A stretch of 53,199 bases of DNA from Pseudomonadota bacterium. Lineage in GTDB: Bacteria > Pseudomonadota > Gammaproteobacteria > Burkholderiales > Burkholderiaceae_B. Under the pieces are notes generated by a model. The model ran no database searches and was not told the origin of the DNA. It was given only the letters and a program-made list of their open reading frames with translations. The position numbers were made by a program, and so were the translations under genes. Of the stretch, positions 3,183 through 18,809 are shown piece after piece; within the stretch, counting starts at the first letter, position 1, and each line of letters opens with the position of its first letter. The DNA lies in assembly GCA_023432075.1 (NCBI GenBank), contig JAEYVD010000041.1:1-53199 (forward strand), in the 5' to 3' direction.

Positions 3183-3830
3183 ATGACATTGAACGATGAA
3201 GAGTGCAGTGCCGACGAGCTTTCCCTGAAAAATATTATCGACTTGCCGACGCCGTACGTACTTGACCCGTCAGAACGCAGCAAAACACCTTTCAAGTTGA
3301 CCCAATATCCCACGCAGGGAGGAATGGTCGTTCCCGGGCGCGCTGGTGAGCTGCGCGGGCTTTACGGCACACTCGGGAGCCTTGTGTGGAATCCTGATTG
3401 GTCGGGTTACCTTGCTCGTCCGAACAAACCTCATTGGGGTGTCGATATCTACGCCCCGATAGGTACTGAGGTTATCGCAGTTTGCGATGGTGCTCTGAGT
3501 TTTCATGAGGAACCGGATGGTCTTGGACTATACGCCCAACTCCATATTGCGAAGCAGGGGCAATGGCAGTTCCAATACGGTCATTTGGGAGAGCGTCTGC
3601 GGAAGGCGGGGCCAGTCAAGCGAGGACAAGTCATTGGTCGCGTGGGTTGTTCAGGCAACGCTGATGATAATAAAATTTGCGAAAAAATACCTCCCGGCCT
3701 TGCGTTTAGTGCATCGCATTTGCATTTGCAGTTAAAGCAGTTAAGTCCCGGGACAGAGTCGCGGCGAACAAACCCGTTAAAGGTTCTGGGCTGGATGCTG
3801 GAATCACCCTCCAAGCCTCCCAAGATGTGA
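3183..3830 (+). CDS. M23-family metallopeptidase without signal peptide
   Basis: The 215-residue protein has the lysostaphin-type M23 zinc site. H84 and D88 lie in PHWGVD, a YGHL motif with H134 follows, and a terminal HLH motif has H179 and H181. By family knowledge H84, D88 and H181 bind zinc and cleave peptide cross-bridges in peptidoglycan. All key residues are present, so it should be active. There is no signal peptide or membrane segment, unlike housekeeping M23 enzymes; it would need another export route, such as type VI secretion or lysis. Residues 1-80 precede the catalytic fold and are unassigned. A GGAG motif upstream supports the start. The next gene, 120 bases downstream in the same direction, could be a partner. 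GC content is low compared with the chromosome. Confidence 0.8.
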   Translation: MTLNDEECSADELSLKNIIDLPTPYVLDPSERSKTPFKLTQYPTQGGMVVPGRAGELRGLYGTLGSLVWNPDWSGYLARPNKPHWGVDIYAPIGTEVIAVCDGALSFHEEPDGLGLYAQLHIAKQGQWQFQYGHLGERLRKAGPVKRGQVIGRVGCSGNADDNKICEKIPPGLAFSASHLHLQLKQLSPGTESRRTNPLKVLGWMLESPSKPPKM

Positions 3831-4635: not shown

Positions 4636-5830
4636 ATGCCGATGAAGAAGAAACGCACAGCGGCCGCTCAGGCGGCGGCCCGTGGGCCGTTGCCCGAAGT
4701 TCCTGCCGAGTTGCTGGATCATCTCGTCAAAGGACCGATGACGCCCAGCGAGGCGCAGATCTGTTCTTGTCGTTCCAGAAGGCAGTGATCGAGCGGACGA
4801 TGGCCGCAGAGATGAACCTGAACTGGGATATCGACCGGGCGAGCACAAGCCTGAAGGCCAGACCAACGAGCGGAACGGCGCCAGCGGCAAGACCCTGCTG
4901 AACGAGTGTGGCCCAGTGCGCGTGTAGCTGCCCCGCTACCGGGATGGCTCTTTCGCGCCGATCCTGATTCCCAAGCACGAACGGCGCTTCACCGGGTTCG
5001 ACGACCGGATCATCGCGACGTACGCGCGAGGGATGAGCGTGCGCGAGATCCAGGCGTTCCTGGCCGAGAGCTACGGTACCGAGGTTTCCCCTGATTTCAT
5101 CAGCTTGGTCACCGACGAGGTCATGGCCGAGACCACTGCCTGGCAGCATCGGCCGTTGGAGGCGATATACCCGGTGGTGTTCTTTGACAGGCTGCGGGTC
5201 AAGATCCCTGACGGCGGCGGGGTCAGCAACAAGACGGTGTAGCTGGCCCTGGGCGTGCGGGCCGACGGCCAGCGCGTCGTGCTGGGCCTGTGGGTTGAGC
5301 AGACCGAGGGTGCCAAGTTCTGGCTCAAGGTATTCAACGAACTCAAGACCCGAGGGTGCCAGGACATCCCTATCGCCGTGGCCGATGGCCTGAAGGGCTT
5401 GGCCGACGTCATTGGCACCGCCTTCCTGCGCACGACGGTGCAGACCTGCATCGTGCATCTGATCCGCAACAGCCTGGATTACGCGGGATGGAAGGATCGC
5501 AAGGCCTTTGGCCCCGCGCTGCGCCCGATCTACGCGGCCCCCAGCGCGAAGGCCGCCGAGCAGGCGCTACAAGCGTTTGCCGACGGGCCATGGGGGGCAA
5601 GGTACCCGATGATCGTCGCCGCATGGCAGCGGGCCTGGGAGAACGCCACGCCATTCTTCGTCTTCCCGACTGACATCAGAGGCGAGATTTACACCACAGG
5701 TGCCATAGAAAGTTTGAACCTGCAACTGCGCAAGATCATCAAGACACGAGGCCACTTCCCTACCGATGAGGCGGAAATCAAGCTCTTATGGCTGGCCCTG
5801 CTTCAAGGCTCTCACGGGTTTGCTCCGTAA
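4636..5830 (+). pseudogene. IS256-family transposase, frameshifted, with in-frame stops and 3' truncation
   Basis: Across frames this reads as an IS256-type DDE transposase: [55 protein letters not shown], then [39 protein letters not shown] and TTGAIESLNLQLRKIIK with the late catalytic Glu. A base is missing near 4760 and another shift lies near 4825. In-frame TAG codons are at 4925-4927 and 5240-5242. After LLWLAL the family's usual C-terminus is replaced by about ten unrelated residues at about 5797, where integrase sequence begins. The element is therefore dead and cut at its 3' end. The longest intact piece is 5255-5830. Confidence 0.85.
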
Positions 5831-6504: not shown

Positions 6505-9042
6505 ATGGCTGAGAAGTCGAAGACATACAACGGCGTCATTGCAGCTCTTTCCGTATTTGTTCTCTGTCTCGTTTTTCCGCGAAGCAAGTGGGGTTACATC
6601 GTTTTATTCATTGGGGCCGTTTGGGCCTGGCGAGCGCTGTTTGTTGGTACTACGAAGCAATCAGCATCCGCCGGTCCGTCCCGAGCTGAAGCGGAAAAGA
6701 CGACGAAGCCAGTGGACGCGCGAGCCCGGATGGAACCACATGTCGCAACGACTCGCTCTCCGGAAGTCGGTGCGCCTCCCGCTTCGGTTGCAACAACCCC
6801 TAGGTTCGTTCCAGACGATGACCCTGTATCAGTGGCTCCGAAGGCGCCTTCTTCGACGGTTGCTGTTCCGTCGCTACCGCTACCGATGACTTCGGCTGCC
6901 CCGAGACGATTCGTGGATGAAAGTACTCCGGTTCCCGTCGTCACAAAAGCGCCTTCGCAATCAGAGAACTTCGCAATACCCCCGGCCCCAGCTCAGGCCA
7001 ACGTAGGGCCGGGCCGCTGGATACCGCCGGGAGATAACGTACTCATCGCCGGCTGTCTCATCAACGGTGGAATGATTTACGTGGGCAAGGACCTAAAAGC
7101 GTACTCTGGTTCGCCCGACCCCTGTCTCATCAATCCCGCACTGCCCATAGCTTCGCAAGCTAACGCTAGCGAGCGTGGGTTCGGCTATTGGCCTTCCTAT
7201 TCCGAGATAGCACCCGTTGCTCGCCGGGCCTATCTGATCTGGCTAGCGGGCGGCCGGTGCGACCCTGAAGCTGATATTGGTTACGTTTTTCTCTTCTTCT
7301 ACGGTTTAGAACGCAGAGCGCTTATCGACGGGCAGAAGGACGAAAAAGCGCAGCGAGACCGACCTGCCATTGCGCAGGAACTCAGGCGGTTGTTAATAAT
7401 CTACGGCGAAAGATCCTTTTCCTTCAAGCGATATGCCAGTGAGCTGCTTAACTGGCTAGAGGTGTCACACTACTCCAAGAAGCTATACGACGAACCTATT
7501 CCATCGTTCCCAACGACCTTCGAATTACCACTGTATGTTCGCCTTGCGCTTGGGCTCGCTGCAGTTGACCGAGAGCCTGTACCTGGTCACCTAGCTTTGG
7601 CTTGGGCGAGGCTTGATCCAACCAGCTACCTGAGGACACCCGCCACTCGGTGCACAGAGCAGTTCGACAAGCTCTTCCTGCAACGCTATGCCGAGACTTT
7701 CAATCCGGGCATCGTCCTTCCCCGCAACAAGACGAAGTTGAAGCTCGTTTACCAGCCAGCTTCTGCAGGCTTTAGAGGTATCAATGAAATCAAGCTGAAT
7801 TTTGGCGATACGCCAGATGTGACGGTACTTACGGCCCCGCAAAAGCAACTAAAGAAAGTTGTGGATGAGGTCACGGAACAGTTAGATCAATACAGTCGGT
7901 ACCTTGGTCGCAATCCAGAAGCTCCCAATGCACTGGAAGGCTTGCTGCTACTGCCTCCCACGATTTGGCCGAAGGCTGCCGCGGATGCGTTAAAAGGCTT
8001 GCAAGAGCGCGTTGCAGCCAACATCACTGTGGTGAGGATGCAGGAACTGCTCGATATGTTCCAGGCGAAGGCCGCCTTGAACAAGGAGCGTGCAGTGGCG
8101 CTGGCCAAGATACTGGATGCTGTTCGCATTGGAATAGAGCCAGACATCCTCGGCGGCGCAAGAACGCCGAAGGGTGACAACTACGTCGTGCTTTACGCTG
8201 CGCCCGAGTTAAACAGTTCGTTAGTACGGACGGCGGCATACCAGGTTGCAGCACTCACACTTCAGCTAGCGTCCGCCGTCGCCGGTGCCGACGGTGAATT
8301 TGGTGAGGAGGAGATGGAGCACCTCCGAGGGCAAGTGCAAGATTGGTCGCACCTGACTCTTGGGGAATCAGCCAGGCTGTTGGCTCACCTGCGGCTACTG
8401 GCTGCAGAGCCTGTTCCCTTGGCATCTCTCAAGAAGCGTTTGGAGTCGCTGGACGCAAAATCCAAAGAAACGATTGCCACCTTCATGACGACCATTGCAC
8501 AGGCCGATGGAACGGTAACACCGGCCGAAGTGAAGATGCTGGAGAAAGTCTATAAGACCCTGGGCCTTGATACCAAGAAGGTCTTCGCTGATGTACATGC
8601 TGTTGCCGCCGGGGCCAGGCCACAGCCAAGCATCTCAACGAGCTCCGGGGTGAAGGGTTTCCAATTGGATGCTGCAAAGATCTCAGCATTGCAAAAGGAC
8701 TCTGAGCGAGTTTCCGCACTTCTGGCTGATATCTTCAAGGAAGAATCGCCGCCGCCATCTCTGGTCGCAGCGGCCGTGTTGGAGCCCGAGGAAGCTGCGG
8801 CGCCAACTACTGGACTGCTCGGCCTGGATGAAGCCCACTCGGCTTTTGCTCGAATGCTGCTGTCACGTCCACAATGGGCTCGTGACGAACTCCTGGACGT
8901 TTCGTCCGATTTGGACCTCATGCTGGATGGAGCCCTTGAGCACATCAATGAGGTTTCGTTCGATACCCACGACATACCGTTCACTGAGGGTGATGATCCA
9001 ATTGAGGTGAACCCTGAAATTCTGGAGAAGCTTGAAGCATGA
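6505..9042 (+). CDS. sngA: TerB-N/TerB/TerB-C domain protein, Shango SngA-like
   Basis: The 845-residue protein begins with two hydrophobic segments (about 9-26 and 29-47), then a Pro/Ala/Thr-rich linker to about 165. A TerB-N-type region follows (about 170-380, starting GRWIPPGDNVLIAGCLINGG). Two TerB-like acidic loops come next near 592 (ADGEFGEEEMEHL) and 662 (QADGTVTPAEVKMLEKVY), then a TerB-C-type tail. TerB modules are thought to bind metal and act as sensors or scaffolds at the membrane. The stop overlaps the next start (ATGA), and the helicase gene follows, so the three form one operon. This order, TerB protein, ATPase, DEAD/DEAH helicase, is what I recall for the Shango anti-phage system. 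The family-level assignment is firm; the system name is recognition from memory. Confidence 0.8.
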   Translation: MAEKSKTYNGVIAALSVFVLCLVFPRSKWGYIVLFIGAVWAWRALFVGTTKQSASAGPSRAEAEKTTKPVDARARMEPHVATTRSPEVGAPPASVATTPRFVPDDDPVSVAPKAPSSTVAVPSLPLPMTSAAPRRFVDESTPVPVVTKAPSQSENFAIPPAPAQANVGPGRWIPPGDNVLIAGCLINGGMIYVGKDLKAYSGSPDPCLINPALPIASQANASERGFGYWPSYSEIAPVARRAYLIWLAGGRCDPEADIGYVFLFFYGLERRALIDGQKDEKAQRDRPAIAQELRRLLIIYGERSFSFKRYASELLNWLEVSHYSKKLYDEPIPSFPTTFELPLYVRLALGLAAVDREPVPGHLALAWARLDPTSYLRTPATRCTEQFDKLFLQRYAETFNPGIVLPRNKTKLKLVYQPASAGFRGINEIKLNFGDTPDVTVLTAPQKQLKKVVDEVTEQLDQYSRYLGRNPEAPNALEGLLLLPPTIWPKAAADALKGLQERVAANITVVRMQELLDMFQAKAALNKERAVALAKILDAVRIGIEPDILGGARTPKGDNYVVLYAAPELNSSLVRTAAYQVAALTLQLASAVAGADGEFGEEEMEHLRGQVQDWSHLTLGESARLLAHLRLLAAEPVPLASLKKRLESLDAKSKETIATFMTTIAQADGTVTPAEVKMLEKVYKTLGLDTKKVFADVHAVAAGARPQPSISTSSGVKGFQLDAAKISALQKDSERVSALLADIFKEESPPPSLVAAAVLEPEEAAAPTTGLLGLDEAHSAFARMLLSRPQWARDELLDVSSDLDLMLDGALEHINEVSFDTHDIPFTEGDDPIEVNPEILEKLEA

Positions 9043-10343
9043 ACGCACCTATTCGACCCAAAGAGCGTGATGCTGTTGTCCAGTCCCTACGTGCAGGCGT
9101 GGTGCCACGGGCTGGTCAGCACCTCATCCAGGTAGGCCGCATCCGAGAAATTGAAACACTGGTGAGCGATATGGTTCGCGTTGCCGATGGTGGCTCTGCG
9201 TTCCGTCTAGTCATTGGGGAGTACGGTGCCGGCAAGACGTTCTTTCTGAACTTGGTTCGCTCCATTGCTATGGAGAAGAAGCTGGTGGTGGCTAGCGCCG
9301 ACCTGAACCCAGACCGCCGACTCCATGCAAGTGGCGGGCAGGCACGATCTCTCTATGCTGAATTGATGCGCAATATGGCCACCCGAACCAAGCCCGATGG
9401 AGGAGCGTTGAGTGGCATCGTTGAAAAGTTCATAGCCACGGCTAAGTCCGAGGCGAAGGACGCAGGGAAGGCGACCGAAGATGTCATCCGCCAGAAGCTC
9501 GAGCACCTTACGGAGTTGGTCAATGGCTATGACTTTGCTGACGTCATTGCCGCCTACTACCGTGGTTTCGAAGAAGGTAATGAGCAGTTGAAGTCCGATG
9601 CGGTGCGCTGGCTGCGCGGTGAGTTTACGACCAAGAGCGATGCAAAAGCAGCACTTGGTGTACGCACCTATGTGGATGACGCCGCAGTCTATGACCAACT
9701 CAAATTGGTGGCCAGGTTCGTACGGCTCGCGGGTTTCAGCGGCCTGCTGGTTAGCCTCGATGAACTGGTCAACCTTTATAAACTTGCCAATGTGCAGGCA
9801 CGCAACTCCAATTACGAACAAATTCTGCGCATCTTGAATGACTCGCTTCAAGGTACCGCAGTCGGCCTGGGATTCATTCTCGGGGGGACGCCAGAGTTCC
9901 TTCTAGACACTCGGCGAGGACTCTACAGTTACCCGGCGCTTCAAAGTCGATTGGCTCAGAACACCTTTGCAAGCAGTGATCTCGTTGACTTTAGCGGTCC
10001 CACAGTGCGTCTTTCAAGCCTTACTCCTGAAGACTTCTACGTGCTTCTGCAGAAGCTGCGCCACATCTACGCTGGTGGGGATCCGACCATGTACCTTTTG
10101 TCGGACCAAGGCATTGCTAGCTTCATGGAACATTGCTCTAAGCGCATCGGTGAAACCTATTTTCGAACACCTCGTACCACCATCACCTCCTTCATCAACC
10201 TTCTTGCTGTCCTGGAGCAAAATCCGGGTACCGAATGGCAAACACTGCTCGGAGGCCTAGAGGTAGCGGTAGACACAGGTGCGACAGGAGATATGGTTGT
10301 GGGGGTAGACGAAGGTGACGATTTTGCATCCTTCAAGCTCTAG
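9039..10343 (+). CDS. sngB: BrxD-like (DUF2791-type) ATP-binding protein, Shango SngB-like
   Basis: The protein has 434 residues. A P-loop, GEYGAGKT (60-67), and a Walker B region, GLLVSLDELVNL (about 235-245), identify a P-loop ATPase. The N-terminal pattern (RAGVVPRAGQHLIQVGRIRE, then the P-loop, then a DLNPDRRLH segment) matches the BREX ATP-binding (BrxD/DUF2791) family as I know it. BrxD partners a Lhr-type helicase (BrxHI) in type 2 BREX; here the same pairing is joined by a TerB protein instead of the Pgl genes. It starts inside the stop of the TerB gene and ends 14 bases before the helicase ATG, implying translational coupling. Predicted role: ATP-dependent regulator or loader for the helicase, in the cytoplasm. 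Confidence 0.8.
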   Translation: MNAPIRPKERDAVVQSLRAGVVPRAGQHLIQVGRIREIETLVSDMVRVADGGSAFRLVIGEYGAGKTFFLNLVRSIAMEKKLVVASADLNPDRRLHASGGQARSLYAELMRNMATRTKPDGGALSGIVEKFIATAKSEAKDAGKATEDVIRQKLEHLTELVNGYDFADVIAAYYRGFEEGNEQLKSDAVRWLRGEFTTKSDAKAALGVRTYVDDAAVYDQLKLVARFVRLAGFSGLLVSLDELVNLYKLANVQARNSNYEQILRILNDSLQGTAVGLGFILGGTPEFLLDTRRGLYSYPALQSRLAQNTFASSDLVDFSGPTVRLSSLTPEDFYVLLQKLRHIYAGGDPTMYLLSDQGIASFMEHCSKRIGETYFRTPRTTITSFINLLAVLEQNPGTEWQTLLGGLEVAVDTGATGDMVVGVDEGDDFASFKL

Positions 10344-10357
10344 AAGTGGAGCGCTGC

Positions 10358-12553
10358 ATGTCCGGGACGAGTTCGTCTTTTTATCTTCTTAATGAGCGCA
10401 TTCAGCGTTTTATATGGGCGGAGGGCTGGGAGTCATTGCGGGATGCCCAGGAGCGGTCGATTCCGCTGCTCATCAAGGCAGACCGCGATGTCATCGTCGC
10501 GGCTGCCACCGCGGCAGGAAAGACCGAGGCTGCATTCTTTCCTGCGCTCACGCACCTATTGGAGTGCGAGGAGCCGCGCCTCATTGTTTACATCAGCCCG
10601 CTGAAAGCACTCATCAATGATCAGTTTGGCCGACTTGAAAAGCTCTGCGAACAATTGGACATCCCTGTTTGGCCTTGGCACGGCGATGTCGGCGCAACCT
10701 CCAAAGCCAAGTTCTTGAAGCAGCGGCATGGGGTCTTGCTCATCACCCCGGAATCTCTTGAAGCGCTGCTGTGCAATCGAGGCACATCCATTGGATCTGT
10801 ATTTCAAAGGACCGCTTACTTCGTGATTGATGAGCTTCATGCCTTTATTGGTTCTGAACGAGGCAAGCAACTCCAATCATTGTTGCATCGCATCGAAAAC
10901 GTGCTACGTCGGAAAGTCCCCCGTGTAGGGCTTTCCGCGACGCTAGGCGACATGCATTTTGCATCAGATTTTCTTCGGCCGGGCCACGGCGCTGGCGTCA
11001 GCGTGATTGTTTCCGCCTCTGCAGAAAACGAGCTTCTCATTCTTCTGAAGGGGTATGAAGAGCCTTTGCTTGTCAGACCAAGTGGTGAGGAAGACGTCCC
11101 TGAGCCTGTTACGCCTGGTCGCATTGCCGTCCACATGTATAAGGCTCTTCGGGGCTCCAACAACCTGGTGTTCCCAAATTCGCGAAGCGAGGTCGAGCGA
11201 TACACGAATCTTCTAAACAGCCTGTGTGAGCAACATAAGGTTCCTCAGGAGTTTTGGCCGCATCATGGCAACCTTTCAAAGGAAATCCGTGCGGAGACCG
11301 AGGCCGCCCTCAAACAGAAGGAGGTGCCTGCCACGGCCGTCTGCACGAACACCTTAGAGTTGGGTATAGACATTGGAGCAGTCAAGAGCGTTGTCCAAAT
11401 TGGTCCGCCTCCCTCAGTCGCTAGCCTGCGCCAGCGACTTGGGCGCTCAGGTAGGCGCAAGGGAGAGCCGGCTATCCTGCGCGGCTACTGCATTGAAGAT
11501 GCGATCGACATTCGCTCAGGCTTCGGTCCGAAACTGAGGTTGGGGCTCCTGCAGACCATCGCTATGGTCTCGCTCCTGCTGGAAAACTGGTTCGAGCCGC
11601 CGGTAACGCACGGAGCCCACCTTTCTACGTTGGTGCAACAGGTGCTATCTGCCATCGCCCAGAATGGCGGCGCCACGATTGGTCAGTTATATGCACTGCT
11701 ATGTGCTCCCGGAACGCCGTTCGAAGAGACGACCAAGGAGGACTTCATGTCTTTGGTTCGTCATTTGGGAACGAAGGGACTTCTGGTCCAGGACTCGTCT
11801 GGTCTGTTACTGCATGGCCCGCTGGGTGAAAAATTCGTAAATCACTACACCTTCTATGCGGCCTTTGCCTCCGATGAAGAGTTTCGCTTGGTCGCCGGTC
11901 ACCAGACTCTTGGCACACTGCCGGTGTCCCAGATGCTCTCTATAGGGCAGCGGATTCTGTTTGCAGGCAAGACCTGGATTGTTGAGATCGTTGATGAATC
12001 GCAGAAGGTCATTTTTGTGAAACGTGCCGGTCGCGGCGCACCACCCTTGTTCTCTGGTGGGTCGGGGCGAGTTCACACGAAGGTTAGGCAGCGAATGCGG
12101 GCGCTGCTGGAGTCGACTGAAAAAATTGCATTCATCGACGAGGTTGCGCAGCGTTTTCTGGGGGAAGCACGCTTCAACTTCCATGCTCTGAACTTGAAAT
12201 CAGAGTGTTTAATTGACCAAGGGCATGAACTCCTGCTGGTCACATGGCTCGGTGATGCTGCCAACGAGGCGTTGGCCTGCTTCATGATCCAACAAGGTTT
12301 CACCGCTACACCTTCTGGGCCCGGCATCGAGGTGGTGAAGGGCAACCACAGCATCGACAACATCCTGGATGCGCTTCATGATGTTGCATTGGTCAAACAA
12401 CTTTCGGTGGATGAACTACTGGAGCGTGCCCAAAATCTAGAACGGGAGAAGTGGGATTGGGCACTACCGCCTAACTTGCTCAAGAAGGCTTATGCGAGTC
12501 TTAATCTGGATATTGAGGCGGCAAAGAACTGGGTGGCTTCAAATTACGGCTAG
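10358..12553 (+). CDS. sngC: Lhr-like DEAD/DEAH helicase, Shango SngC-like
   Basis: The 731-residue superfamily 2 helicase shows motif I (AATAAGKTEA), motif II (DELH in VIDELHAFIGSERG), motif III (LSATLGD), motif V (TNTLELGIDIGAVKSV) and motif VI (QRLGRSGRRKG). The late part resembles the winged-helix extension of Lhr/BrxHI helicases. All motifs look intact. I chose the ATG at 10358, which has GGAG six bases upstream, over an in-frame GTG twelve bases earlier. It is the last gene of the operon. Predicted role: nucleic-acid translocase acting on invading DNA, driven by signals from the TerB and ATPase partners. The mechanism is inferred from genomic context, not visible in the sequence. Confidence 0.85.
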   Translation: MSGTSSSFYLLNERIQRFIWAEGWESLRDAQERSIPLLIKADRDVIVAAATAAGKTEAAFFPALTHLLECEEPRLIVYISPLKALINDQFGRLEKLCEQLDIPVWPWHGDVGATSKAKFLKQRHGVLLITPESLEALLCNRGTSIGSVFQRTAYFVIDELHAFIGSERGKQLQSLLHRIENVLRRKVPRVGLSATLGDMHFASDFLRPGHGAGVSVIVSASAENELLILLKGYEEPLLVRPSGEEDVPEPVTPGRIAVHMYKALRGSNNLVFPNSRSEVERYTNLLNSLCEQHKVPQEFWPHHGNLSKEIRAETEAALKQKEVPATAVCTNTLELGIDIGAVKSVVQIGPPPSVASLRQRLGRSGRRKGEPAILRGYCIEDAIDIRSGFGPKLRLGLLQTIAMVSLLLENWFEPPVTHGAHLSTLVQQVLSAIAQNGGATIGQLYALLCAPGTPFEETTKEDFMSLVRHLGTKGLLVQDSSGLLLHGPLGEKFVNHYTFYAAFASDEEFRLVAGHQTLGTLPVSQMLSIGQRILFAGKTWIVEIVDESQKVIFVKRAGRGAPPLFSGGSGRVHTKVRQRMRALLESTEKIAFIDEVAQRFLGEARFNFHALNLKSECLIDQGHELLLVTWLGDAANEALACFMIQQGFTATPSGPGIEVVKGNHSIDNILDALHDVALVKQLSVDELLERAQNLEREKWDWALPPNLLKKAYASLNLDIEAAKNWVASNYG

Positions 12554-12901: not shown

Positions 12902-12926
12902 TTAGTACGGCACCGACATAGAGTCC
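12902..12926. repeat. Left terminal inverted repeat of the IS407-group element
   Basis: The repeat starts TTAGTACGGCACC and ends TAGAGTCC. About 19-20 of its 25 positions match the inverted right end. Its first three bases (read on the minus strand) are the TAA stop of orfB. Confidence 0.75.
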
Positions 12927-13726
12927 AGGGTTAAAAACCGTTGTTGCCGATGCGCCTGAGCAAACTGCTCCGGCGTTAAGTATCCCAGCGCGCTATGCGG
13001 GCGTTCGGTGTTGTACTCGACGCGCCAGTCTTCGATCAAGGATTTGGCTTGGCGCAGCGACATGAACCAATGCTCATTCAGGCATTCATCGCGGAATTTT
13101 CCGTTGAAGCTCTCGATGTATGCATTCTCCACGGGCTTGCCTGGTCTGATGAACGACAGCTTCACGCCGACCTGATAGGCCCAAGCATCCAAGGCCCTGC
13201 CAGCAAACTCTGGGCCGTTGTCCACGGTGATGGATTTGGGCTGCCCACGCAGTTCCGCGAGCTGTTGCAGCACCTGCGCTACCCGTAATCCCGGCAGTGA
13301 GGTATCGACCTCGATGGCAAGACACTCGCGCGTGTAGTCATCGACGATGTTCAAGCACCGGAACCTGCGGCCATAGGCCAGACCGTCGGACACGAAGTCC
13401 ATCGACCAGCTCTGATTCGGCGCCGTCGCAACGGGACGAACTACCCGTTCTGCGGGAGCGATGCGCTTGCGGCGACGCTTACGAACGCTCAAGCCGGCTT
13501 GGCTGTAAAGCCGCCAGACCCGCTTGTGATTCGTCTGCCGGCCTTCACGGCGAAGCAGAATATGGATGCGCCGATAGCCGTAGCGTCGCTTGAGCGCTGC
13601 CATCTCCTTCATGCGCTCGGTCAATGCCATGTCGCCCGTACGCTTAGTTTCATAAGCGAACAGCGACCGGGAAATGCCTACCAGCCCGCAGGCCCGGGTG
13701 ATACCCATGCCGCGCTCGGTCATCAA
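12902..13726 (-). CDS. IS3-family transposase OrfB (DDE integrase core)
   Basis: The visible product has 274 residues with an rve-type integrase core: first Asp in WSMDFVSDGL, second Asp in ITVDNGPEF, and Glu in AYIESFNGKFRDECLN. An N-terminal HTH_21-like region (RYGYRRIHILLRREG) precedes it. The open frame extends further upstream as SPQAKREAVKTL and overlaps the end of orfA by one frame (-1). By family knowledge OrfB is therefore made as an OrfAB fusion by programmed -1 frameshifting near the CTTTTGAGC stretch around 13775. All catalytic residues are present, so the element may still be mobile. Confidence 0.85.
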   Translation of the reverse strand: MMTERGMGITRACGLVGISRSLFAYETKRTGDMALTERMKEMAALKRRYGYRRIHILLRREGRQTNHKRVWRLYSQAGLSVRKRRRKRIAPAERVVRPVATAPNQSWSMDFVSDGLAYGRRFRCLNIVDDYTRECLAIEVDTSLPGLRVAQVLQQLAELRGQPKSITVDNGPEFAGRALDAWAYQVGVKLSFIRPGKPVENAYIESFNGKFRDECLNEHWFMSLRQAKSLIEDWRVEYNTERPHSALGYLTPEQFAQAHRQQRFLTLDSMSVPY

Positions 13727-14424: not shown

Positions 14425-14717
14425 TAGGCAATCCCTGCTTGCTCCAGCGGGATGCTTGCACCACGAACTTACTATCCCCGCGTTTTGAGGCGGGTTTGCT
14501 TTAAATTGATCATTTCAGCTAGGTTGGCCGAAGATGGACATCTATGGCCTGCGTTTTGACCGGATTCACACGACAACCAAACTTGTTGCCGCATTGATAA
14601 AAACCCTTGTTTGCAGCAATGATAGTGGACATACGAGCGATAGCTTTTTAGGAAAACGTAGAAGGTTCAAGTTTGCAGTCTATGCCTGACTTAGCTGCCT
14701 TGATCACAAGGACTCCT

Positions 14718-17700
14718 ATGAACGATCAAGCTGAGGGCGCCGTTCGCTCGCTCGCTCCCGCCTATTTTCCGCGGGGGCTCGTAATCAGCGAGGCAGACTT
14801 GCTCGACAGCGTCGACGAAGCCGGACTGCTCGCTCTGGTCGGCAACAAGATCGTGCTAGGTGAGCCTGGTATGGGCAAGAGCGAACTCATGCGCGAACTT
14901 GGACGGCGGCTTGGGGTTGATTTAGTTACCGCAATTCGCTTCATCAATTCCAAGAACCCAGGCAAGTTGGTGTCTGCGGGCAAGCCTTTGCTAATAGACG
15001 GTCTTGATGAGGCTATGTCGAGACGCGAGGGCGACGCAGTCGATGCGATCTTGGCCCAGCTCGAAGAGGCGGACTTACCGCCTTTCATCCTTTCGTGTCG
15101 ATCGCGAGAATGGCAAGCGCGTAGCGTGACGAATTTGCGTCGGCTCTACGGTGCTGAGCCTCGAGTCTTGACGCTCGAACCTTTCGATCGTAGTGAAGCG
15201 CGGGCGGTTCTATTTGCACAGAACCCGAGCTTGGATGTTGATCATGTGCTCGATCACCTCGAGGCCTACAGCCTCCAAGATCTTTACCGTAATCCGCTGA
15301 CGCTTGGCTTGATCCGACGTGTCGCGGAGACTGACACGCAATTGCCGGCGACGCGCGCGACATTGTTCGAGCGCGTCTGCTCCCTTATCTGGCCAGAACA
15401 TGATGGAGATCGGCAGGATGAGGGGCTGGCGCAGCTGACGCAAGACGAAGCGCTTGACGCCGCCGGTGCGATCGCCGCCGCACTGCTATTTGGTGGTGCC
15501 GAAGCCGCCAGCGCGGCAGGCGCTGCGCAGGTGCTGCAGGGCGATGTGCGACTCGCCGATCTCGAGGCCCTGCCGAAGGGCGAGGCCTCACGCGCGATTT
15601 TTTCGTCGAAGCTGTTCCTTAGTGTCGGGCCGTTGCGCGCGAAGCCGATTCATAGAGTCATCGCCGAGTATCTCGGTGCACGCTGGCTTGCACGTCAAGC
15701 GGCGACGCCGCGCGCGCAGCGGCGCTTGCTCGCCCAATTGCATGGCAGTGGCGGCGTTCCGGCAAGTCTACGTGGGCTCCATGCCTGGCTCGCCTATCAC
15801 AGCCCGGCGATGGCTGAGCGCATCATCACCGCAGACCCGTATGGCGTGCTGCGTTACGGCGAGGACACCTTGTTAACGCCGCATCTTGCGGACTGTTTAT
15901 TCGAGGCACTGAGCGGACTCGCTGAGGACGATCCTTATTTCCGGGCAGCAGACTGGGACCGCAAGACTGCTGCTGGACTGATGATTACTCCGCTCAAGCA
16001 CAAGATTCAGAAAATCATCTCCTCGGCAGCCAGCAGCGCGCACTTGCGCGCGCTGCTGATAGAAGGACTCAAGGCAACAGCGCTCGCAATTGAGCTTGCA
16101 GATACTTTGGAGGCGATTGTTCTCTCCCGTGAACGCTTTTATCGCGAGCGCGAAGATGCCGCAGAGGCCTTGCTGCCACACCGCGACCGGGCATGGTGGC
16201 GCACGACGATTGCATCGCTGATCGACCAGGGCGGAGAGGATGCGCCGAGACTTGCGCTTCGACTGATTCAGCTGATAGATGCCGACGTATCAGATGAGCT
16301 TCTGGTCGCAACGCTTTTCGCCGAAATGGGGGTGAGCCGTTCTCCGCTACGCCGCTCGAAGCCGCAGCGCGTCCACACCATTCGCAGCTATGAGGAACTA
16401 TTTGCCGTGATTTCGTCGGTGCGGCTCGTCGGAATACTCGACTTGATAGTCGATTATTCCCAGCTGTTGCACGATGACGATTGGCGAAGCGCCGGCGAGG
16501 TGGCCGATATCGTCACCAATCTCATTGTTCGCGGTATTGATGAGGGTGCTATCGGTGTCGTCGAGGCGCCTTCGTTGTGGCGCTGGCTAGAAGCACTCGA
16601 GCACGAGCATTACTATGATCGCCACGTTCGGCAGAGGCTCGCGGCGCAACTGTGGTCGCAGGACGCCTTGCGTCGTGCAATTCAGGCGCATGTGCTGGCT
16701 CACGATCGCCGTCGGGATAGTCTATGGGCCACCGCCATCTTTTTGCAGCGTCGCCTTCTACGGCAGGATTGGCGGCAAGACGACATCATTATCTTGTTCG
16801 ACCGGCTAGCCCAAGGTAACAACAAAGATCCCGCGGCGCGCCAAGACTGGCAAGATTTGGTACAGGTCGCGTGGCGACATGATGGACTCGAACCGGTCGT
16901 GCGCGAAGCTGCAGAGCGATTCCGTCGAGGCGACAAAGCGCTCGGTGATTTTCTGAGTAAGCTTGAGAACCCCAAAAAGCCAGGGTGGGAGGTCCGTCAG
17001 GAGAAGGAGCGGGCAAAGCGGGAGCGCAAACGCAAGGTGGCGATTGAGGAGGCGCGTCGCTCATTTGGCATGGCACGCGATGATCTGCGCGCTGGCGAGC
17101 TGGGCGCGATTCTGCGGCCGGCTCAGGCCTATTTGGGTCTGTTCCGCGACCTTCCCAGCGGATTGTCCCCATTCGAGCGGCTGTCGAGCTGGATCGGGCC
17201 GGACCTATGCAGCGATGCGCTGATCGGATTTGAGGCTGTATTGCACCGCTCGGACCTACCCGCGCCGGTTGAGTTTTCCAACGGTTTTGCTAGCCGTTCG
17301 ATTTACAATTTCGGCTACCCTATCATGGCTGGGCTTTACGAGCGCATGCGACTTGGCAAGAGCTTTGCCGAACTATCCACACCGCTTAAGCAATCGGCGT
17401 TATTGCTCAGTTATGAAGGTCATGGTTGGGGCCTCGACGAGGAAAAGGACGCGCTGCGGGCGGCGCTGGAAGTCGAAGTCATTTCCTGCCTGAACACTCG
17501 ACAGGCGTTCGCAAGGCTTTGGATCGAGCCTGCGCTCGATATAGGAAAAGAGCATGTTGCAGGGCTCAGAAAACTCGCCCACGATCCAGAATGGCAGGCG
17601 ACAGGGGCGGCGCTTGGTGCCGAATGGCTAACGAGGTTTCCCAACGTACCGGCTTCGGTTGAAGCAGAATTAGTCGACTGCCTAACCTATGGCGGTGCGC

Positions 17701-18809
17701 TAGCTGCGCTTCGGGATGTTGCCAAAGCCCGCGCCGAGATGGTGTTCCGCAATGTGGACCATCTGCTGTCATGGCTAGCGATCGATGTTGTAGTCCGTTT
17801 CGATGCTGTGCGACCCGATCTGGCCAAGATAGGTACGTACCATCCTGACTTTATCTGGTTCCTACGGAACCGCCTACAGTTCGAACGGAGAGACGAGAAG
17901 CTGCCGCTGACAGTTTCCCAGGCAGAATGGATCATCACCGAGTTCCGCGAGCATTGGCCATATACGGAGCTTAGGGGAACAGGATCGGGCAACACGAACG
18001 GCTATGACGCGACCGATTTTCTCCGCTCGCTAATCAGTCGGATCGCCGACGATACGAGCATTGAGGCTGCTGAGGCGATCGCGAGGCTTGTAACCGGCCC
18101 CAGGGACAGCTATGCGGAGTTGATTCGTCACATGGCTGCCGAGCAGCGGCAGAAGCGTGCCGAGGAGGATTTTTCAGCGCTTTCGCCGGCCGATCTAACT
18201 TCGCTTCTCGACGATGGCCCTCCCACCAATATTGATGATTTGAAGGCGCTAGTGTGCGAAGAGATGTCCGTCGCGCAGCTTAAGCTCATCGGCGACGATC
18301 TCGATTCGGTCGTAGATTTCTGGACCGATGATGGCATGCCTCGCGACGAGAATCGATGCCGCGACCGTCTCGCCGGAATGATTGGCCCTGAGGTCGACCG
18401 CTACGATATTCAGCGGATTACCGAGGCGGACATGCCTCAGACCAAGCGCGCGGACCTGGCTTTTGCGCGTGGGTCGATGCAGTTGCCGGTTGAGGTCAAA
18501 GGCCAGTGGCATAGCGAGGTTTGGGATGCCGCGAACGGCCAGCTCGACATGCAGTATTTGATCGACTGGAGTTGCGGGCAACGCGGTATCTACTGCGTTT
18601 TGTGGTTCGGTGATTTACCGTCGTCGACGAGGCGGCGGTTGAAGGCGCACCCCGATGGGCTTCCTGCACCGACGACAGCGGAAGCCATGCGTACGATGCT
18701 AATCGATCGGATTCCCGAGGCGCGCCGCACGCTGATCGACGTCGTTGTGATCGATCTATCGGCCGGCAAGCCCAAACGCGTTCTTTCTCATGCAGCGTCG
18801 GATGGCTAG
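14718..18809 (+). CDS. STAND/NACHT-like NTPase with C-terminal PD-(D/E)xK-like nuclease
   Basis: The 1,363-residue protein has a Walker A site, GEPGMGKS (48-55), and a Walker B site, LLIDGLDEA (about 91-99). A sensor-like FILSCRSREW, an NPLTLGLIRRV helix and an HRVIAEYLGARWL winged-helix motif follow, the order seen in NACHT/STAND ATPases. A long helical, probably repeat-rich sensor region fills about 350-1200. The C-terminus carries D1246 (KRADLAF), E1259 and K1261 (PVEVKGQW), the spacing of a PD-(D/E)xK restriction-like nuclease. Such proteins sense phage components and then activate an effector. Here the nuclease follows the sensor, whereas Avs-type proteins carry the effector at the N-terminus. 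I chose the ATG with AAGGA five bases upstream; an in-frame TTG lies 45 bases earlier. No known system name is assigned. Confidence 0.75.
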   Translation: MNDQAEGAVRSLAPAYFPRGLVISEADLLDSVDEAGLLALVGNKIVLGEPGMGKSELMRELGRRLGVDLVTAIRFINSKNPGKLVSAGKPLLIDGLDEAMSRREGDAVDAILAQLEEADLPPFILSCRSREWQARSVTNLRRLYGAEPRVLTLEPFDRSEARAVLFAQNPSLDVDHVLDHLEAYSLQDLYRNPLTLGLIRRVAETDTQLPATRATLFERVCSLIWPEHDGDRQDEGLAQLTQDEALDAAGAIAAALLFGGAEAASAAGAAQVLQGDVRLADLEALPKGEASRAIFSSKLFLSVGPLRAKPIHRVIAEYLGARWLARQAATPRAQRRLLAQLHGSGGVPASLRGLHAWLAYHSPAMAERIITADPYGVLRYGEDTLLTPHLADCLFEALSGLAEDDPYFRAADWDRKTAAGLMITPLKHKIQKIISSAASSAHLRALLIEGLKATALAIELADTLEAIVLSRERFYREREDAAEALLPHRDRAWWRTTIASLIDQGGEDAPRLALRLIQLIDADVSDELLVATLFAEMGVSRSPLRRSKPQRVHTIRSYEELFAVISSVRLVGILDLIVDYSQLLHDDDWRSAGEVADIVTNLIVRGIDEGAIGVVEAPSLWRWLEALEHEHYYDRHVRQRLAAQLWSQDALRRAIQAHVLAHDRRRDSLWATAIFLQRRLLRQDWRQDDIIILFDRLAQGNNKDPAARQDWQDLVQVAWRHDGLEPVVREAAERFRRGDKALGDFLSKLENPKKPGWEVRQEKERAKRERKRKVAIEEARRSFGMARDDLRAGELGAILRPAQAYLGLFRDLPSGLSPFERLSSWIGPDLCSDALIGFEAVLHRSDLPAPVEFSNGFASRSIYNFGYPIMAGLYERMRLGKSFAELSTPLKQSALLLSYEGHGWGLDEEKDALRAALEVEVISCLNTRQAFARLWIEPALDIGKEHVAGLRKLAHDPEWQATGAALGAEWLTRFPNVPASVEAELVDCLTYGGALAALRDVAKARAEMVFRNVDHLLSWLAIDVVVRFDAVRPDLAKIGTYHPDFIWFLRNRLQFERRDEKLPLTVSQAEWIITEFREHWPYTELRGTGSGNTNGYDATDFLRSLISRIADDTSIEAAEAIARLVTGPRDSYAELIRHMAAEQRQKRAEEDFSALSPADLTSLLDDGPPTNIDDLKALVCEEMSVAQLKLIGDDLDSVVDFWTDDGMPRDENRCRDRLAGMIGPEVDRYDIQRITEADMPQTKRADLAFARGSMQLPVEVKGQWHSEVWDAANGQLDMQYLIDWSCGQRGIYCVLWFGDLPSSTRRRLKAHPDGLPAPTTAEAMRTMLIDRIPEARRTLIDVVVIDLSAGKPKRVLSHAASDG

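Follow-up and report, generated by a model that had tools for sequence, protein, structure and literature searches.

The eruA gene and its assignment to a catalogued family

The DNA analysed here (the window; 53,199 nucleotides, positions 1 to 53,199 of contig JAEYVD010000041.1, assembly GCA_023432075.1, from a Pseudomonadota bacterium of the Burkholderiaceae_B) carries a gene, eruA, at 14718..18809 whose product is related to the NOD-like immune receptors (NLRs) of humans. The protein has 1363 residues; eruA and its parts, like the Shango genes described below, lie on the plus strand. Translation gives an uninterrupted reading frame from the ATG at 14718 to the stop codon at 18807–18809. Five bases upstream of the ATG is the stretch AAGGA (14708..14712), read from the sequence as a probable ribosome-binding site, and the consensus start of 30 aligned relatives falls at about the same position. 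A longer form beginning at TTG 14673 is possible; AAGGA precedes the ATG.

We compared the protein with NCBIfam, the curated NCBI library (June 2026). It matches the equivalog model NF058535.1, ‘NACHT domain-containing antiphage protein EruA’, at 1391.7 bits, 391.7 bits over the cut-off of 1000. The alignment covers nearly the full length (residues 30–1348 to model positions 13–1318 of 1318), and no family-level difference was found. All seven divergent homologues examined (one protein and six loci) exceed the same cut-off, with scores from 1009.2 bits, for a metagenome-assembled genome of Bathyarchaeota, to 1388.3 bits. A whole-protein search returned 541 relatives out of 7993 scored candidates, the best of which, at 98% identity, carries the label Achromobacter sp. 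HZ01. We conclude that the window protein is an ordinary member of the catalogued family EruA. Pfam PF28130.1 is precomputed in many EruA relatives; our Pfam scan of the window protein did not report it.

An initial annotation of the window had put this gene forward as an undescribed anti-phage system. That claim falls because the family already bears a name as antiphage, and the NCBIfam match likewise rules out an undescribed family. The family does go unnamed in PADLOC 2.0.0 (2023), where the window protein matches no family at E up to 1. A 2023 defence library thus misses a family present in a 2026 library, and claims of novelty need checking against current libraries. The antiphage role ascribed to EruA rests on the name of the NCBIfam model; when one literature library was searched by name and by topic, no primary paper behind that name was among those listed. 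The one listed paper on a protein called EruA (PMC12839154) concerns a SlyA-like regulator from E. coli, to which the family here is not related. A DNA match with 4000 bases found no homologue in E. coli, where one at the protein level is still possible, and a scan of genome contigs with a single EruA protein as query gave no match.

Domain architecture

Together, the models and alignments describe a predicted protein with a NACHT module in front, an alpha-solenoid in the middle, a PD-(D/E)XK fold at the end, and conserved motif residues. The NACHT domain that characterizes EruA is present as an NTPase core at residues ∼41–235 (14838..15422), placed by matches to NLR structures and by Pfam NACHT (E = 9.1e-4; 19.5 bits, under the cut-off of 26.7). 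These matches and the conserved motifs bear out the earlier proposal of a STAND/NACHT NTPase, and translation puts Walker A with K54, Walker B, D1246, E1259 and K1261 at the positions first given. Walker A, GEPGMGKS, spans residues 48–55 (14859..14882), and the NACHT-type Walker B, LLIDGLDEA, spans residues 91–99 (14988..15014). Across 72 broader homologues (76 before identical sequences were removed), K54, D94 and D97 are each found in 72 and E98 in 71. A helical and winged-helix part follows at residues ∼236–420 (15423..15977), with H312 invariant (72/72), and many of the structural alignments to NLRs extend to residue ∼400–450. Single-sequence search found no solved close relative. Profile searches of solved structures gave one match at E = 0.64 and eleven at E = 0.0039–0.1; we take these as chance, except for four that cover Walker A, of which two are chains of NLRC4 and two are chains of the IS5376 ATP-binding protein.

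The long helical middle that had been proposed corresponds to residues ∼421–1150 (15978..18167), which the AlphaFold2 model renders almost entirely as helix. Mean pairwise identity is 0.27–0.32 in this solenoid versus 0.40–0.43 in the NACHT and nuclease parts. The solenoid is the probable sensor.

For the C-terminal part, residues 1145–1363, AlphaFold2 returned a model with a pLDDT of 91.4 and a pTM of 0.84. Within it, residues ∼1167–1350 (18216..18767) form a PD-(D/E)XK nuclease domain for which VIA-align finds BamHI, OkrAI, Can2 and BglII, with McrC also among the matches. The best two, BamHI and OkrAI, are DNA restriction enzymes, with rows within 1 Z counting as tied. Foldseek gave nothing at E < 0.001, its best match being an R2 retrotransposon protein (E = 0.022). 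The R2 endonuclease is itself restriction-like. The probable catalytic residues are D1246 (18453..18455) and E1259-x-K1261 (18492..18500), each retained in 70 of the 72 homologues. The domain thus shows the hallmark of the PD-(D/E)XK superfamily, an alpha/beta core of the restriction-endonuclease type that bears a conserved D...ExK, and the nuclease-type C-terminus first read from the motif spacing holds up. The tail is predicted to be, probably, a DNA-cutting nuclease; its fold does not determine the substrate.

Conservation of the motif residues

The two exceptions at the nuclease residues are L081, a fusion, and L040, whose reading frame terminates early; both were left out of the identity means and the tree. 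Because 80 loci had been collected by patterns around the ExK motif, the conservation of ExK among them arises partly by selection. The whole-protein and plasmid searches are free of this bias. Residues were also counted in a 120-protein set, namely the best 120 of the 541 whole-protein matches plus the query, minus one short sequence, all longer than 1200 residues. K54, D94 and D97 are retained in 118 of the 120, the other two sequences lacking the N-terminus. By alignment D1246, E1259 and K1261 are retained in all 120, but the true count is 119, because the tail of one protein (P0114) is a different domain and its match at these positions is an alignment accident. At the level of sequence, the conservation of both the NTPase and the nuclease motifs exceeds chance.

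P0114, the same protein as L081, is encoded on a Sphingobium plasmid (7974–12620). It follows EruA to residue ∼1124 and then runs on, as an in-frame fusion, into part of a YprB/RNase H-like sequence, without an EruA nuclease domain of its own. We rejected tail swapping as a pattern, as this sole fused protein looks like a rearrangement.

Distribution and gene neighbourhoods

Relatives occur in 24 plasmid records, and 19 of the 20 listed match to residue 1347 or beyond; distant relatives lie on six IMG/VR contigs. Among 20 genomes with a locus, 18 carry just one match and the other two carry more than one. The tree has 70 members, and 23 of them make up the clade of the window protein, with a support of 1.0.

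Neighbouring genes were compared at 20 loci picked for long contigs, with open reading frames (ORFs) called mechanically and a threshold of E up to 1e-20; the scan covered 14 of these loci (112 of the 160 ORFs per side). The 112 neighbour ORFs match 92 PADLOC models; among the 25 of these that were listed are type I restriction-modification, SoFic, PtuB, ShosA and BovA. Two of the matched neighbours match PDC-S01, the DUF4143-type candidate described below. By contrast, 112 control ORFs more than 90 kb distant on the same contigs match 6 models, all IetA or IetS. Models rather than proteins are counted here, so the matches are not independent; the contrast is large, and EruA neighbourhoods are defence-rich relative to matched controls.

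Within the clade of the window protein, 15 loci had visible context, and among them no gene family common to at least three loci adjoins eruA (four loci with duplicate proteins, L068, L073, L078 and L028, were left out of the clustering). This agrees with the view that the gene stands alone, and an obligatory partner was rejected on the basis of these loci. Five relatives from Alphaproteobacteria, among 79 loci, differ in that a DUF4143-type ORF starts between 3 bases before and 6 bases after the EruA stop codon (L022, 13957–15189; L023, 13933–15153; L043, 13909–15147; L046, 13960–15177; L054, 13972–14799). The window lacks such a gene; a search there gave no convincing match (best E = 0.09). 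Pfam DUF4143 is above cut-off in all three of those scanned (L022, L046, L054), both proteins tested match the PADLOC candidate models PDC-S01, and no NCBIfam model is above cut-off in the four of five scanned. The tail of the DUF4143 protein reads, from sequence, as E/D-ExK-like. The five loci form no supported clade (support 0.113). At three other loci (L037 at 14083, L038 at 14092 and L064 at 2171), a 440-residue ORF lies 105–156 bases after EruA, with weak AAA-type Pfam matches in the one scanned (L037).

Relation to known NLR-like systems

HyoA (NF058534.1), another antiphage NACHT protein, gives partial, weak matches to all seven EruA homologues tested (78–128 bits), which mark it as a related family. 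These scores are far under its cut-off of 1200, and HyoA is absent from the matches of the window protein itself with E up to 1.

Avs (AVAST) proteins, with Avs4 among the nearest comparisons, have an N-terminal effector, a STAND core and a C-terminal TPR-like sensor. The window protein has no room for an N-terminal domain, and its nuclease comes after the helical region. With no PADLOC Avs match and no N-terminal effector, Avs membership was rejected. Animal NLRs combine leucine-rich repeats with N-terminal death-fold domains; the window protein differs from NLRC4, NOD2 and NLRP3 in having a helical solenoid and a nuclease.

PMC12169576 describes bNACHT25 as a NACHT protein with a PD-(D/E)XK nuclease that is required for defence, with DNA degraded on activation; there and in PMC13092281, an N-terminal effector is the usual order. 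Like EruA, bNACHT25 and bNACHT32 are described as joining both activities in one chain, with the nuclease N-terminal and the sensor C-terminal, whereas the nuclease fold of the window protein is C-terminal and no effector precedes its NACHT module. Only 45 residues stand before residue 46 (30–104 in the 72 homologues). The initial annotation had noted this reversed order, and it is upheld. The window protein would represent a single-gene bacterial NLR with its effector at the end opposite to that in the well-studied cases and an active site that structural models support. An effector so placed would bear on the generality of NACHT-driven activation.

A proposed model for EruA action

We consider it likely that the window protein is an NLR-like member of the EruA family that acts against phage as a one-gene system, in which the solenoid senses, the NACHT module oligomerises and the tail nuclease cuts DNA. 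Resting EruA would be ADP-bound and, like NLRC4, autoinhibited. Its solenoid, which changes fast, would recognise either something made by the phage or an altered host protein, and the NACHT module would swap ADP for ATP and then oligomerise. Oligomerisation would unite the C-terminal nuclease domains, much as restriction enzymes with the BamHI/BglII fold pair up in dimers, and DNA would be cut. Phage DNA would be lost, probably along with host DNA, and infection would be blocked.

Several other readings deserve consideration. The structures that the tail resembles include McrC and several restriction enzymes, and the nuclease adjoins the solenoid rather than preceding the NTPase; both observations would suit a restriction-like protein acting in the manner of McrBC, in which solenoid and tail nuclease bind phage DNA directly as it enters, ATP hydrolysis by NACHT permits foreign DNA alone to be cut, and the host does not die. 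We regard this as unlikely. A tail that cleaves RNA, or that introduces nicks into single-stranded nucleic acid, and leads to growth arrest instead of DNA loss seems quite improbable given that its top structural matches cut DNA, albeit with ties among them and a fold that leaves the substrate unfixed. The lack of a PADLOC model would fit an ordinary STAND signalling protein unrelated to phage. Against this stand the antiphage name given by NCBI curators and the defence-rich neighbourhoods, and we think it very improbable.

The sensing, oligomerising nuclease that we favour can be extended, tentatively. EruA-type proteins may be ‘reverse-wired’ NLRs, in which a solenoid between NTPase and nuclease relays ligand binding to the far-end effector, and some relatives may have recruited the DUF4143 protein as a translationally coupled second component, giving a two-nuclease variant. 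We hold this extension to be possible but doubtful. Both the reverse wiring and the DUF4143 variant would be new if published work on EruA left them uncovered.

Surroundings of eruA in the window

Upstream of eruA lies a Shango operon (6505–12553) in which PADLOC detects all three genes: SngA, TerB-like and with TerB domains (6505..9042; E = 2.2e-104, residues 142–845), SngB (9039..10343; E = 3.9e-180) and the helicase SngC (10346..12553; E = 3.4e-269). The Shango-like neighbour and defence-island setting noted at the outset are thereby confirmed. An ORF for an IS3-family transposase (12902..13726, minus strand; NCBIfam IS3, 250.3 bits) separates the operon from eruA. GC content, in 1-kb steps, is 0.50–0.62 over the first 19 kb; of the ten steps from 20 to 30 kb, nine lie at 0.61–0.70 and the remaining one at 0.57. 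The window also holds chromosome-type genes, including those for a chemotaxis receptor and a TonB receptor. The GC pattern is consistent with an acquired island adjoining ordinary chromosome genes. A partial Mutator-family transposase at 5255–5830 (profile positions 190–369 of 379) is a sign of island turnover, and a Peptidase M23 ORF lies at 3183–3830, near the Shango operon.
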